Shown here piece by piece: positions 15,910 to 19,726 of a DNA stretch of 31,686 nucleotides (positions within the stretch are counted from its first letter, which is position 1; each line of letters begins with the position of its first letter). The notes beneath the pieces were generated by a model. The model was not told where the DNA came from. It did no database searches and worked only from the letters and a program-made list of their open reading frames with translations. Made by a program: the position numbers and the translations under genes. Origin of the DNA: a virus; the IMG/VR virus record IMGVR_UViG_3300027865_000028, positions 1 through 31,686 of that record; one strand, given 5' to 3'.

Positions 15910-15938
15910 AGTGTATGTAGTATATGTAGTAATGTCAA
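15910..15938 (-). promoter_or_regulatory. Sigma70-type promoter for the minus-strand late arm
   Basis: Read on the minus strand, TTGACA (15938-15933) is followed by exactly 17 bases and TACACT (15915-15910). The -35 box is a full consensus match and the -10 matches 4 of 6. Predicted start is near 15903, giving about a 40-base leader before the ATG at 15861 with its GGAG site. No other strong promoter was seen in the arm. Confidence 0.65.
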
Positions 15939-16241: not shown

Positions 16242-16365
16242 ATAGGGGTATGGTTGACATGAACTAACCCTCAAGCTGGACATCTAAAGACCCCTGTTTG
16301 GATTCGACGGGGGGAGTGCTATCCCCATCGAAAGTAAGTAAGTTCGGAGACACCCTCCCCCCTAT
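16242..16365 (+). ncRNA. Candidate structured RNA/leader with competing G/C pairings
   Basis: A GC-rich block in AT-rich surroundings with alternating G and C runs. ATAGGGG (16242-16248) can close with CCCCTAT (16359-16365). Inside, TTCGA-C-GGGG and CCCC-A-TCGAA (16303-16332) form a stem of nine pairs with one mismatch. The alternative GGGGGGAG (16309-16316) with CTCCCCCC (16355-16362) is mutually exclusive with it. The 13 bases TGGATTCGACGGG (16299-16311) match the 5' part of tmRNA, but no tRNA-like half is present. It lies just upstream of the first early gene and could be an untranslated leader switch. A TTGACA at 16254 lacks a good -10. Confidence 0.35.
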
Positions 16366-16368
16366 ACT

Positions 16369-16389
16369 TGTGTTGATTATTGGTTTAAA
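16369..16389 (+). promoter_or_regulatory. Early-gene element copy 1 (TGTG-N9-GGTTTAAA)
   Basis: TGTG, nine bases ending in ATT, then GGTTTAAA. It directly follows TATACT (16363-16368), a -10-like box. The loop sequence sits in a weak 5-pair hairpin. It ends 14 bases before the ATG of the first early gene, closer than the other copies. Confidence 0.5.
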
Positions 16390-16402
16390 ATAGGAATGAG
16401 TC

Positions 16403-16597
16403 ATGACACACATCGATACTAGTATATTAGAGAGAGAGCTTTGGGCTGAGTTAGAAGTAAGAACTAGAGCTTTGCAAGAGTCTGGTATTAGAGATATAGA
16501 GTGCCAGAGATTGCGAGGTTGGATAGATGATCCTATACTCTATGATCACTGTAGAAGATATGACGAGCTGATTACACTATTGTATCCTTGTTCTTAA
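16403..16597 (+). CDS. First early gene, small hypothetical protein
   Basis: 64 residues, acidic and helical (LERELWAELEVRTRALQESG, then DIECQRLRGWIDD). AGGA is found nine bases before the ATG. It lies under regulatory element copy 1 and is separated from the next gene by a 61-base gap holding copy 2. First genes of early arms often encode host-takeover proteins, which is only context here. Confidence 0.6.
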   Translation: MTHIDTSILERELWAELEVRTRALQESGIRDIECQRLRGWIDDPILYDHCRRYDELITLLYPCS

Positions 16598-16601
16598 TAT
16601 C

Positions 16602-16622
16602 TGTGAGGATTGTTGGTTTAAA
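16602..16622 (+). promoter_or_regulatory. Early-gene element copy 2
   Basis: TGTGAGGATTGTTGGTTTAAA, one base after the -10-like TAATAT (16595-16600). The copy lies in the best hairpin of the set: bases 16603-16614 pair with 16621-16632 (12 pairs including two G-T) around the loop GGTTTA. It is 36 bases before the ATG at 16659. No good -35 is seen at 17 bases. Confidence 0.55.
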
Positions 16623-16658
16623 TAGTCCTCACTAACCTTTCACCAATGGAGATGTAAC

Positions 16659-16931
16659 ATGTTCACTAAGACAGACACACCTACTAAGACCATTCATGTA
16701 ACTGACACAGTTTGGGGATCAGGATACAGCATTACTACTACACCAATAGGCAAGGATCACCATCGTATCGTAGTAGGCTTCGAGAATGGTAAGATGCATG
16801 AGAGTACAATGATATATACACCAGAGGAACGAGACAAAGCCATCGCATGGTTACAAAACTACACCAAACACAGTAACCTCTACACTCTACTGCATAAGTT
16901 CAGAGTTCATGTCCCCGATTCACCATTCTAA
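16659..16931 (+). CDS. Small hypothetical early protein
   Basis: 90 residues, beta-like N-terminal half (KTIHVTDTVWGSGYSITTTP, HHRIVVGFENGKMHESTM) and a helical end (ERDKAIAWLQNYTKHSNLY). GGAG lies seven bases before the ATG. Codon use is less AT-biased than in the genes after 17.6 kb. No family recognised. Confidence 0.65.
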   Translation: MFTKTDTPTKTIHVTDTVWGSGYSITTTPIGKDHHRIVVGFENGKMHESTMIYTPEERDKAIAWLQNYTKHSNLYTLLHKFRVHVPDSPF

Positions 16932-16953
16932 TCTAATCAGGAGTACACAGACC

Positions 16954-17145
16954 ATGACCACCATCGAGACCTTAGAGGACAAGGCTGAACGTCTTAACAA
17001 AAGGTTCAACGAAACTGATCCCGCCAGCGACAACTATAATGACCTGTTGGAAGAACTTGAAATGCTGGATCGTGAAATAGAGTTGGAGATGGCGTTAATC
17101 CTGGAAGATGAGGAATTCTTCGCCAATAATCCAGACCAATCTTAA
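16954..17145 (+). CDS. Small acidic coiled-coil early protein
   Basis: 63 residues, strongly acidic coiled coil (LEDKAERLNKRFNETD, then LLEELEMLDREIELEMALIL) with an EDEEFF tail. I start it at 16954 (MTTIETL) because AGGAG stands ten bases upstream. An in-frame ATG at 16909 would overlap the preceding gene and lacks such a site. Very acidic small phage proteins can mimic DNA, but that is speculation. Confidence 0.65.
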   Translation: MTTIETLEDKAERLNKRFNETDPASDNYNDLLEELEMLDREIELEMALILEDEEFFANNPDQS

Positions 17146-17162
17146 CCAATCTTAACTGAGAT

Positions 17163-17190
17163 AGGGAGTGTATGGAAACATGCACTCTCT
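17163..17190 (+). terminator. Terminator-like hairpin after the first early unit
   Basis: GAGTGTATG and CATGCACTC pair (one G-T) around a GAAA tetraloop, and can be extended by two or three outer pairs. The following TCTTCTCTATTTGT is pyrimidine-rich but not a clean T-run. It lies 18 bases after a stop codon and before a gene-free stretch, so termination or RNA 3'-end protection is plausible. Confidence 0.5.
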
Positions 17191-17416
17191 TCTCTATTTG
17201 TACCAACTTAAATGGTACTTCTAGCCTTGTAGTCGCCCTTAGTAATATAAATTCACAATAAGTATATAATTACACCACAATTGATGCAATAGTGTGCGTA
17301 TTCGGTATGATTCATAGCAACCCTATGCAAATCCCTCAGCACTCCCATGGTAACTGAGTACCTTATACTTATACTAATCCTAACTTATCAACTACTTAGC
17401 TACTAGTCTGTTAAAT

Positions 17417-17492
17417 GCACTATATACCACTCATATGTATTGTATGTATTATATATTGTATATCAATGAGTTAGAGATACTGCATATAGTGC
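17417..17492. repeat. Nested inverted repeat in gene-free AT-rich DNA
   Basis: The outer arms GCACTATAT (17417-17425) and ATATAGTGC (17484-17492) are perfect. The inner arms ACTCAT (17429-17434) and ATGAGT (17466-17471) are also perfect. The centre is TATGTATTGTATGTATTATA-like low-complexity sequence. It could be an operator pair, an origin-associated dyad or a cruciform. Confidence 0.6.
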
Positions 17493-17513
17493 TATTAGTT
17501 TGTCTTGGTGCAA

Positions 17514-17542
17514 TTGACAAAGAGAGGTTTTGTGTGTACTAT
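17514..17542 (+). promoter_or_regulatory. Sigma70-type early promoter
   Basis: TTGACA (17514-17519), 17 bases, TACTAT (17537-17542, 4 of 6). Predicted start is near 17549, inside early element copy 3, so the element would lie at the very 5' end of the transcript. The first gene downstream starts at 17597. Confidence 0.65.
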
Positions 17543-17543
17543 T

Positions 17544-17564
17544 TGTGAGTATGGTTGGTTTAAA
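17544..17564 (+). promoter_or_regulatory. Early-gene element copy 3
   Basis: TGTGAGTATGGTTGGTTTAAA, one base after the -10 box TACTAT. GAGTAT (17547-17552) and ATACTC (17564-17569) form a 6-pair stem with the conserved sequence in the loop. It ends 33 bases before the ATG at 17597. The strongest upstream promoter of the set belongs to this copy. Confidence 0.6.
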
Positions 17565-17596
17565 TACTCCTGTGCTGTTGCAATAAAGGAATAGAC

Positions 17597-17821
17597 ATGA
17601 CATATAGATCAATGAGATGGATAAGTGAAGAAGCTGAAGTACGATATACTAAAGCTATACAATTCATTCGACACTATGGAAATGAATGTACTCCAATAGG
17701 TAATGATGAACGACCATTCTATATCATCGAGAACTCACCTTACATACTATTGAATGGTTGTATGTTTAGGACTGCATTAACTGATGGTAAGATTGAATGT
17801 CTAGGAAGGATTGAGATATGA
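17597..17821 (+). CDS. Small hypothetical early protein
   Basis: 74 residues with alternating helix and beta (MRWISEEAEVRYTKAIQFIR, RPFYIIENSPYILLNG, IECLGRIEI). AAGGAA lies before the ATG. It overlaps the next gene by 4 bases (ATGA), so the two are translationally coupled. No family recognised. Confidence 0.65.
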   Translation: MTYRSMRWISEEAEVRYTKAIQFIRHYGNECTPIGNDERPFYIIENSPYILLNGCMFRTALTDGKIECLGRIEI

Positions 17822-18258
17822 GTAAACATATTATATATAAGGATGCACATAGAGCAACACTATCAGTAGGTTATAATCTACAAACAACTGAACTATATGT
17901 AATAGCTTACAATAGAGATAATATAAAAGGTGACATAGCACCTGATATTGATGAAAGATGGAAACTACTTCGTATTAATCAAAGTGAGATAGGTACTACA
18001 GCAGGTAAGATAGATGGACGTGTATTACCTACATCTATTGCATTACATATGCCTGAGATGTGGCATCTTGCTCGTGATGTATTCTTTGAAGCTACTGGCG
18101 AACAGATACCATCATCAATAATGGAGAGTATTACTCGTGCTATTATGGAAGAAATACGAACAGAAGATGATAACTTGTGTAAGAGAGAAGTAGATTGGAC
18201 CAATTGGATGCCAATAGAGGTTTATCAAGCTAATAACACACCAACTGAAGGGATATAA
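17818..18258 (+). CDS. Hypothetical early protein
   Basis: 146 residues. The N-terminal half looks beta-rich (ATLSVGYNLQTTELYVIAYN), and the C-terminal half helical and acidic (SSIMESITRAIMEEIRTEDDN). It starts on the ATGA overlap with the preceding gene and is 2 bases from the next. No motif lets me assign a role. Confidence 0.65.
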   Translation: MSKHIIYKDAHRATLSVGYNLQTTELYVIAYNRDNIKGDIAPDIDERWKLLRINQSEIGTTAGKIDGRVLPTSIALHMPEMWHLARDVFFEATGEQIPSSIMESITRAIMEEIRTEDDNLCKREVDWTNWMPIEVYQANNTPTEGI

Positions 18259-18260
18259 CA

Positions 18261-18617
18261 ATGCCATTAAATGGTGAAGAGTTAAGAGAATTAGAGATGA
18301 TGATCCAAATCATAGGTAATGATTATATTACAAAAGATTTAGAAAAAATTCCAGGAGATGCAAATGATATGATGTCTGAAGCTTTGAACAAAGTAATAGC
18401 TATTGAGTTTGTGCATAGTAACTTAGTATCTGTGTATATATTAAAAATAGTTTCATTTAAGCCTGATATAGAATTTACTGATGCAATTAAGTTGTGTGAT
18501 ACGCTAATAGATCAAGCCTTCAATGAAGTAAGGACTAATTGTTATAGTAACCTTCAAAAAGCTATGGATGATGCAAGGGCTAGTCGTGATAAAGTCCTTG
18601 GTCAACGTGATAAATAG
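18261..18617 (+). CDS. Hypothetical early protein, helical
   Basis: 118 residues, mostly helical and acidic (EELRELEMMIQIIGNDYITK, ALNKVIAIEFVHSNLVSVYI), ending in a charged helix (QKAMDDARASRDKVLGQRDK). GGG lies eight bases before the ATG. It is the last of three tightly packed genes, and the 61-base gap after it carries regulatory element copy 4. No known family. Confidence 0.65.
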   Translation: MPLNGEELRELEMMIQIIGNDYITKDLEKIPGDANDMMSEALNKVIAIEFVHSNLVSVYILKIVSFKPDIEFTDAIKLCDTLIDQAFNEVRTNCYSNLQKAMDDARASRDKVLGQRDK

Positions 18618-18622
18618 TTTGT

Positions 18623-18643
18623 TGTGTAAGATGTTGGGTTAAA
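18623..18643 (+). promoter_or_regulatory. Early-gene element copy 4
   Basis: TGTGTAAGATGTTGGGTTAAA, with the same TGTG-N9 spacing but GGGTTAAA instead of GGTTTAAA. GATGTT (18630-18635) and AACGTC (18642-18647) form a 6-pair stem around the 6-base loop GGGTTA, the same geometry as copy 2. It ends 35 bases before the ATG at 18679. No convincing -10 box precedes it, which argues that the element itself, perhaps as RNA, is what is kept. Confidence 0.5.
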
Positions 18644-18678
18644 CGTCCCTTGTCCGTGCAACTAATGGAGATGTAGAT

Positions 18679-18855
18679 ATGAATATCGGAGAGCTAGTAG
18701 ACATATTGAAGGAATTAGATCAAGAAAGTAATGTAAGGATAGTAATTGGAATGCATATACATGAGATTGTTGGAGTGTATTTAATACATGAACTTAATTC
18801 AAGTAAACCTAGTCTTATACGATTAAGGCATGAGCCTACTCATGAGACTGCATAA
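18679..18855 (+). CDS. 58-residue hypothetical early protein
   Basis: 58 residues: helix MNIGELVDILKELDQESNVR, then beta strands RIVIGMHIHEIVGVYLIHEL and a short tail. This general form (a short helix, then a small beta unit) is common among small phage proteins, but the role is unknown. GGAG stands eight bases before the ATG. Its stop shares the A of TAATG with the next gene. Confidence 0.65.
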   Translation: MNIGELVDILKELDQESNVRIVIGMHIHEIVGVYLIHELNSSKPSLIRLRHEPTHETA

Positions 18856-19079
18856 TGACAAATGATGATGTATGGCTACACTTACAAGAGTATAACGATG
18901 TAGGCTATCATGATATGCCTAAATGGCTACGTAATCATCTAGAAGCATATGATATACGATTCGATATACGACAACCTACACAACAGGAGATGATAGAAAC
19001 TGAACAAGATGCTAAAGATCATAGAATACTGAATAATGAACTCACAACTGATGACTTAATGGAGAAGTATAATGTTTGA
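18855..19079 (+). CDS. Small hypothetical early protein
   Basis: 74 residues, charged, helical (NDDVWLHLQEYNDVG, MPKWLRNHLEAYDIRFDIR, EMIETEQDAKDHR). It starts on the TAATG shared with the preceding gene and overlaps the next by 8 bases. No family recognised. Confidence 0.65.
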   Translation: MTNDDVWLHLQEYNDVGYHDMPKWLRNHLEAYDIRFDIRQPTQQEMIETEQDAKDHRILNNELTTDDLMEKYNV

Positions 19080-19566
19080 TACCAATGGTTATGTAAATGA
19101 ACTGTCCTTTGCATCTGATGATGAATATGTACAGCAGGCTAAGGATCAAGTTAAATTCTCAGAGACACTACTAGATGATGCTTACCTTGCACGAGCACAC
19201 CATTGGGGTGTAGCTGCTGCAATGGAGAATCAGATTAGTTACCTTGGAGGACAGCTACTTCCTAAAGCTGAACGTAGATTAAATAACTTAGCTAATCCAA
19301 GAGGTGTACTAGCTGAATCAGATCTACGTATATCATTTGTATCCAATGAAGATCAACGACATATCAATGAAGATACTACCATTGAAGATGATATCATGGA
19401 AGCTGAGCAATTCATCGATCAAGTTAAGGGTAAGATGGAACGAGCTGCTGTGTTGTATGCTATATTCGTACATGCACATGATGAACTGTCATATACATTG
19501 GAACAGATGACATATAGGCAGATCAAACAGAAGGCTGAAGCAAATAGAGCACGTAGGAGTGCGTGA
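19072..19566 (+). CDS. Hypothetical early protein, long helical
   Basis: 164 residues, helical through most of its length (QQAKDQVKFSETLLDDAYLA, EAEQFIDQVKGKMERAAVLY), with a basic C-terminus (KQKAEANRARRSA). This fits a coiled or bundled protein. It overlaps the gene before it by 8 bases, and its TGA overlaps the ATG of the 40-codon gene after it. Confidence 0.65.
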   Translation: MFDTNGYVNELSFASDDEYVQQAKDQVKFSETLLDDAYLARAHHWGVAAAMENQISYLGGQLLPKAERRLNNLANPRGVLAESDLRISFVSNEDQRHINEDTTIEDDIMEAEQFIDQVKGKMERAAVLYAIFVHAHDELSYTLEQMTYRQIKQKAEANRARRSA

Positions 19567-19703: not shown

Positions 19704-19726
19704 TAGACATGACGTTAAACTGTCTA
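19704..19726 (+). promoter_or_regulatory. Possible diverged fifth copy of the early element hairpin
   Basis: TAGACA and TGTCTA form a 6-pair stem around an 11-base loop that contains ACGTTAAAC, close to the GGGTTAAAC of copy 4. It ends 25 bases before the ATG at 19752, in the same kind of gap. It lacks the TGTG part, so it is only tentatively a family member. Confidence 0.35.

Follow-up and report, generated by a model that had tools for sequence, protein, structure and literature searches.

In the leader of T7 gene 10, a stem-loop at the 5' end is followed by an UUAACUUUA-like sequence and then by the Shine-Dalgarno sequence. In phage HK022, putL lies just downstream of PL, and the put RNAs (putL and putR) act in cis as nascent RNA structures near the early promoters (PMC9378689). 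In the Cluster K mycobacteriophages, the SAS and ESAS elements, whose function is unknown, are repeated before several genes and conserved across subclusters, and about half of them are accompanied by inverted repeats (PMC3203893). The translational operators of gene 43 and gene 32 in T4 and RB69 are hairpins or pseudoknots in the leader, upstream of the start codon; their loop is conserved, and a phage protein binds them (PMC3014915). The stabilising stem-loops of the ompA/papA type are located near the 5' end of the mRNA and are free in stem sequence (PMC3997798).

The element analysed here shares features with each of these systems and differs from all of them. As in put, the structure would form near early phage promoters; however, put comprises two stem-loops within about 70 bases and is present in two copies per genome, whereas here a single stem-loop is present in four copies per genome. 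put suppresses termination by binding the beta' zinc-binding domain of RNA polymerase, an interaction that would be putative for the present element; a location downstream of an early promoter is clear only for one copy (copy 3, see below). As with SAS/ESAS, the element is repeated before several phage genes, but in ESAS the 17-base arms are conserved, the spacer varies and there is a link to GGGATAGGAGCCC, whereas the present element has variable arms around a conserved core, which sets it apart from ESAS; furthermore, SAS is located immediately upstream of the start codon, in contrast to the 23-65 bases between the core and the start codon here. Like the T4/RB69 operators, the element is located in the leader before the start codon and has a conserved loop, but those operators are autoregulatory, with one gene each, whereas here one loop precedes several unrelated genes and its reader is putative. 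A stem of free sequence is shared with the ompA/papA type, as is a location near the 5' end where this is predicted (copy 3) or suggestive (copies 1 and 2); however, the loop core is conserved among the copies and among related phages, which a purely steric block does not need. Finally, TTAACTTTA, the counterpart of the T7 gene 10 sequence, is present in the leaders of two relatives (L183 and L209) but absent from the four leaders of the phage studied here. Searches with the Rfam 15 covariance models yielded no match at the gathering score, and a permissive search gave only chance-level matches elsewhere. No description matching the element was found in the literature searched; it may have been described elsewhere.

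The early region of the window and the four copies

The window, i.e., the whole stretch of DNA analysed in this work, corresponds to a linear virus record in IMG/VR, 31,686 bases long (IMGVR_UViG_3300027865_000028). The minus strand encodes a portal protein, a terminase and a major-capsid-like protein, the latter assigned on the basis of matches to annotated capsid genes; on the same strand, a candidate promoter for the leftward late genes (TTGACA-17-TACACT) is located at 15910-15938. The plus strand carries small early genes from position 16403 onwards, followed by genes for a DUF932 protein, a PD-(D/E)XK-like nuclease, a Sak4-like ATPase and a Dda-like helicase. The copies of the element would serve nine small early genes (16403-16597, 16659-16931, 16954-17145, 17597-17821, 17818-18258, 18261-18617, 18679-18855, 18855-19079 and 19072-19566, all on the plus strand), the last two of which have homologues in L182 and L190, with a homologue of 18855-19079 also present in L012. 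No DNA similarity was detected between the early region and cultured phages. Because the capsid and terminase proteins match those of GenBank phages at only 20-32% identity, we name no host, although the promoter of copy 3 suggests a bacterial one. A search for a T7-type RNA polymerase in 18 records was negative, as was its positive control.

The original prediction that four copies of one motif start at 16369, 16602, 17544 and 18623 holds at each of these positions. The pattern TGTG-N7-TTGG-TTTAAA, which includes the TT before GG specified in that prediction, matches exactly at the first three positions and with one change at the fourth, so that the four copies can be summarized as TGTG-N7-TTGG(T/G)TTAAA. 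At one mismatch, these four matches are the only ones on either strand of the window, against a mean of 0.01 expected from 100 dinucleotide shuffles. The significance of the motif rests on this strict pattern, because a looser one (nine free bases, two mismatches) is expected 3.0 times and is not significant. All four copies are on the early (plus) strand, each just before a gene: copy 1 (TGTGTTGATTATTGGTTTAAA, 16369-16389) precedes gene 1 (ATG at 16403), copy 2 with its hairpin (16602-16632) directly follows the stop codon of gene 1 and precedes the gene at 16659, copy 3 with its hairpin (17544-17569) precedes the gene at 17597, and copy 4, the GGGTTAAA variant, with its hairpin (18623-18647) precedes the gene at 18679. 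The distance of 33-36 bases to the ATG that had been predicted for copies 2-4 applies to copies 2 (36) and 4 (35), and copy 3 falls just outside it (32); copy 1 ends only 13 bases before the ATG. A hairpin at 19704 (AACGTC/GACGTT), proposed as a possible fifth copy, does not contain the TTGG core and is not a copy.

All four copies had been predicted to form hairpins, and the predicted loop sizes (7, 6, 11 and 6 bases for copies 1-4, respectively) are indeed seen, although the stems range from strong to marginal. Copy 2 forms a strong hairpin of 12 pairs (arms 16603-16614 and 16621-16632, loop GGTTTA at 16615-16620; -17.1 kcal/mol, p = 0.004 in arm shuffling). The hairpins of copies 3 and 4 are modest: the former has 6 pairs (GAGTAT 17547-17552, loop 17553-17563, ATACTC 17564-17569; -6.5 kcal/mol), and the latter also has 6 pairs (GATGTT 18630-18635, loop GGGTTA, AACGTC 18642-18647; -5.4 kcal/mol alone and -7.0 kcal/mol with flanking sequence) and is not significant in arm shuffling (p = 0.50). 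The hairpin of copy 1 is marginal, with 4 pairs (TATT 16378-16381/AATA 16389-16392) that do not constitute the minimum-energy fold. Pairing of the loop with the downstream leader, as in a pseudoknot, was not significant (p = 0.07).

The -10-like boxes that had been noted upstream of copies 1-3 are present, with TATACT (ending at 16368) directly adjacent to TGTG and TAATAT and TACTAT one base away. The gap between the end of the box and the stem, or the place where its base is expected, is about 4 bases in all three copies, and the -10-like boxes of the first two L012 sites likewise end a few bases 5' of the stem. A clear -35 box is found only at copy 3, where TTGACA (17514-17519) and TACTAT, separated by 17 bases, form a sigma-70-type promoter (17514-17542, plus strand); the stem starts 4 bases after the end of its -10 box (17542), and the usual transcription start is predicted to fall on the first stem bases (17547), at the base of the stem. 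At copies 1 and 2, the spacing of the -10-like box is the same but a clear -35 box is missing, and copy 4 lacks both boxes. Thus, as judged from these signals, the placement of the hairpin at the 5' end of the transcript appears well supported for copy 3 and is suggestive for copies 1 and 2. The first early block is closed by a hairpin resembling an intrinsic terminator (17163-17190, plus strand), followed by about 320 gene-free bases and the new promoter; terminator-like hairpins after the first early block are also found in L012, L183, L190, L182, L210 and L008. The gene-free stretch itself (17190-17513) has the same layout in L012, L182 and L190 and is a possible small RNA or control region.

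Variant copies in relatives and compensatory changes in the stems

In a near-identical record (G002), copies 1 and 2 are unchanged. More distant relatives, with about 60% identity in the terminase and syntenic early regions, carry variant copies, all of which are located in leaders on the early strand. L012 contains four TTGGTTAAAAA sites, all on the early strand and none elsewhere (0.28 expected), L183 two sites in the first two slots, L190 two TTGGGYTTATAAC sites, L204 one site and L210 one TTGGTTAAGAAGG; in addition, L182 carries a single TTGGTTTAGAC site and L008 an TTGGGTTTCG hairpin. Variants of the motif are present at matching positions in relatives, and the window and L012 share four slots. 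The first two precede gene 1 and directly follow its stop codon, the third comes after a terminator and some 250-400 gene-free bases, and the fourth precedes the block that contains the 18855-19079 homologue. The distance from the core to the start codon is 23-65 bases. Altogether, the sixteen hand-listed sites represent eight phages. The core is absent from the first-gene leaders of many further group members, which restricts the element to part of the group. A scan of the collection with the window pattern returned 119 stretches that, apart from the near-identical record, belong to apparently unrelated contigs, and a scan with the L190-type core gave 18 matches, mostly without the other landmarks of the group. 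The search of genome contigs with the capsid protein revealed no relative, and scans with L012 early proteins revealed no further ones.

Across the window and these relatives, completely different stems surround a loop core that is retained. The arms of copy 2 (GTGAGGATT/AGTCCTCAC) and copy 3 (GAGTAT/ATACTC) are unrelated in sequence, and different stems again are found at L012a (GATACTTT/AAAGTATC), L183b (AGGTAGTG/CACTACCT), L210 (GTGTTGTGG/CCGCAGCGC, with G-U pairs included) and L190a (CCTGTT/AACAGG). The stems are weak in copies 1 and 4, L012c, L012d, L183a and L182b.

To avoid choice by eye, the core served as the only criterion for picking sites, and an automatic gene caller then divided them into leader and other sites. 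For the resulting 14 leader sites, the summed energy of the arm duplexes was -128 kcal/mol, compared to -80 +/- 9 kcal/mol when the 3' arms were re-dealt among sites, and none of 20,000 re-deals was as good (p < 5e-5); 12 control core sites gave no signal (-65.8 vs -65.6 re-dealt). The gene caller made two kinds of error, namely the inclusion of L196, which is probably not an element, among the 14 sites and the placement of the leaders L183a and L190b among the controls, both of which should work against the result. The result holds for the hand-made list of 16 sites, one of which (L008) was found by eye, as well as without L008 and L204 (-121 vs -83 +/- 9), and when re-dealing is confined to each genome (p = 0.0004). 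By contrast, 33 GTGGTAAAA sites from the same phages, used as a control, display no such arm pairing (p = 0.97). The stems therefore change in a compensatory manner around a conserved loop, as had been predicted; however, this case rests on the relatives, because the four copies of the window alone give p = 0.13.

Proposed function of the leader hairpin and alternative explanations

We consider it about an even chance (probability near 0.5) that the element is a cis-acting leader RNA hairpin of successive early gene blocks, the loop of which is read by a putative trans-acting factor. Conservation of a loop on a stem that is free to vary characterises hairpins that present their loop, and the shared-loop hairpin apparently serves the early gene blocks as a common tag for control at the RNA level. 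The stem, free in sequence, would display the conserved loop UUGG(U/G)UU(A/U)A... to a phage or host RNA-binding protein, or to the ribosome, and this reader would jointly adjust the translation or stability of the early mRNAs; the conserved core, its matching positions in relatives, the compensating stems and the early-strand orientation are observed, and we infer both the loop-binding factor and this type of control. A bolder reading, which we regard as rather doubtful, is that the element represents a new class of phage leader RNA, in which a single displayed loop tags early gene blocks for joint control and would drift slowly between related phages together with its putative reader; in the strongest form, it would modify the host RNA polymerase or ribosome as RNA alone, with no need for a phage protein. 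If the leader-hairpin interpretation is true, a shared RNA tag would show how takeover genes are co-regulated after transcription initiation in an uncultured phage group, a level of control seldom mapped beyond T4, lambda-like phages and a handful of others; the loop would then be a ready bait for finding its reader, and the element would mark early leaders in metagenomic genomes of unculturable phages.

The original prediction of an RNA-level function, with an antitermination site, a translational control site and a regulator operator as candidates, is partly borne out: the kept core, the matching slots and the compensating stems support it, and translational or other RNA-level control appears to be the best fit, with the DNA operator disfavoured and the second stem of put not found. 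Two outcomes that would have spoken against the prediction, a motif missing at matching positions in relatives and stems that do not covary, were not observed. An antitermination mechanism like that of put, in which the host RNA polymerase, bound by the nascent hairpin, would ignore pauses and terminators without a phage protein, is in our view unlikely. The hairpins do lie near early promoters, as putL lies just downstream of PL (PMC9378689), terminator-like hairpins follow in the window and in relatives, and one L183 copy comes directly after a terminator. Nevertheless, no significant second hairpin was detected after the 16 sites, in contrast to the two stem-loops of put, and the terminator at 17163-17190, being followed by a new promoter, appears to be obeyed. 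Furthermore, the copies are repeated before successive gene blocks, and the arrangement in several copies, each of which precedes a gene or block of its own and has its core 23-65 bases from the start codon, favours control of individual mRNAs over an antiterminator that acts once per operon. Somewhat less probable still is a passive stabiliser, i.e., a hairpin at the very 5' end that hinders RppH and RNase E and the loop of which is not specifically read. Such a role would be in line with the stabilisation of E. coli mRNAs by 5' hairpins (PMC3997798), with the spacing of about 4 bases between -10-like box and stem (or expected stem base) in copies 1-3 and with the free variation of the stems, but it leaves the conservation of the loop core among copies and relatives unexplained, and some of the stems are too weak to protect.

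The possibility that the site functions as DNA, either as an operator of a regulator or with the core serving as a -10 promoter box, ranks lower again. It draws on the resemblance of TGGTTTAAA to an extended -10 box and on the spacing of GTGGTAAAA in relatives, which before the DUF932 gene is that of a -10 box relative to TTGACA. However, at the 16 sites no TTGACA-like hexamer is present 16-18 bases upstream of the core, in contrast to eight GTGGTAAAA sites behind TTGACA, and the core of copy 3 lies downstream of a complete promoter. Nor are the arms conserved among copies, as a dyad operator would imply; they vary freely yet pair, which those of the GTGGTAAAA sites do not. G-U pairs in a folding mRNA predict an asymmetry between strands that a symmetrical DNA site does not, and the mRNA strand indeed pairs more strongly than its complement (-145 vs -108), a difference that exceeds that of re-dealt arms (p = 0.016). 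This asymmetry, a single test, is moderate evidence and partly supports the mRNA strand as the folding strand. Together with the free variation of the arms, it speaks against a DNA operator. We consider it very improbable that the motif arose by chance, or that a short sequence was recently duplicated and the stems are an impression gained by eye. Although the stem test fails on the four window copies, the motif count is 4 against 0.01 expected, variants occupy matching slots in phages with about 60% identical terminases, and pairing across phages is significant (p < 5e-5); the flanks differ between copies, so recent duplication is not the explanation.

Neighbouring sites

Several further sites were noted in the early regions of this group. 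The sequence GGATTCGACGGGG upstream of copy 1 resembles the 5' end of a tmRNA, but the tRNA/tmRNA search found none, and this candidate was rejected. The GTGGTAAAA sequence was likewise rejected as a copy of the element, its arms being unpaired and its location before the DUF932 gene being at -10 distance from TTGACA. The combination TTGACACACA...GTGGTAAAA before this gene is conserved and promoter-like in L225, L228, L231, L234, L237, L238, L206 and L190, and its -10 box is unusual, the final T often being missing. Where no -35 box is present, GTGGTAAAA is also found before other early genes of relatives. Five relatives without the TTGGTTTAAA core (L209, L212, L215, L218 and L220) share TGCTTCTG(G)TGTT(G/A)GGTG in the leader or promoter region of the first gene. 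Finally, a G-run site located between the late and early genes (16246-16364), adjoining the first early leader, is common to all 23 relatives inspected. Its rough form is TGATCTGAnTATAG, about 35 bases and CACCnnTTTTTnnATCnnCGGGGGGAGTT (TTCGACGGGG/CCCCATCGAA in the window), often followed by a C-run, and an origin, a packaging site or an early control site are candidate roles.
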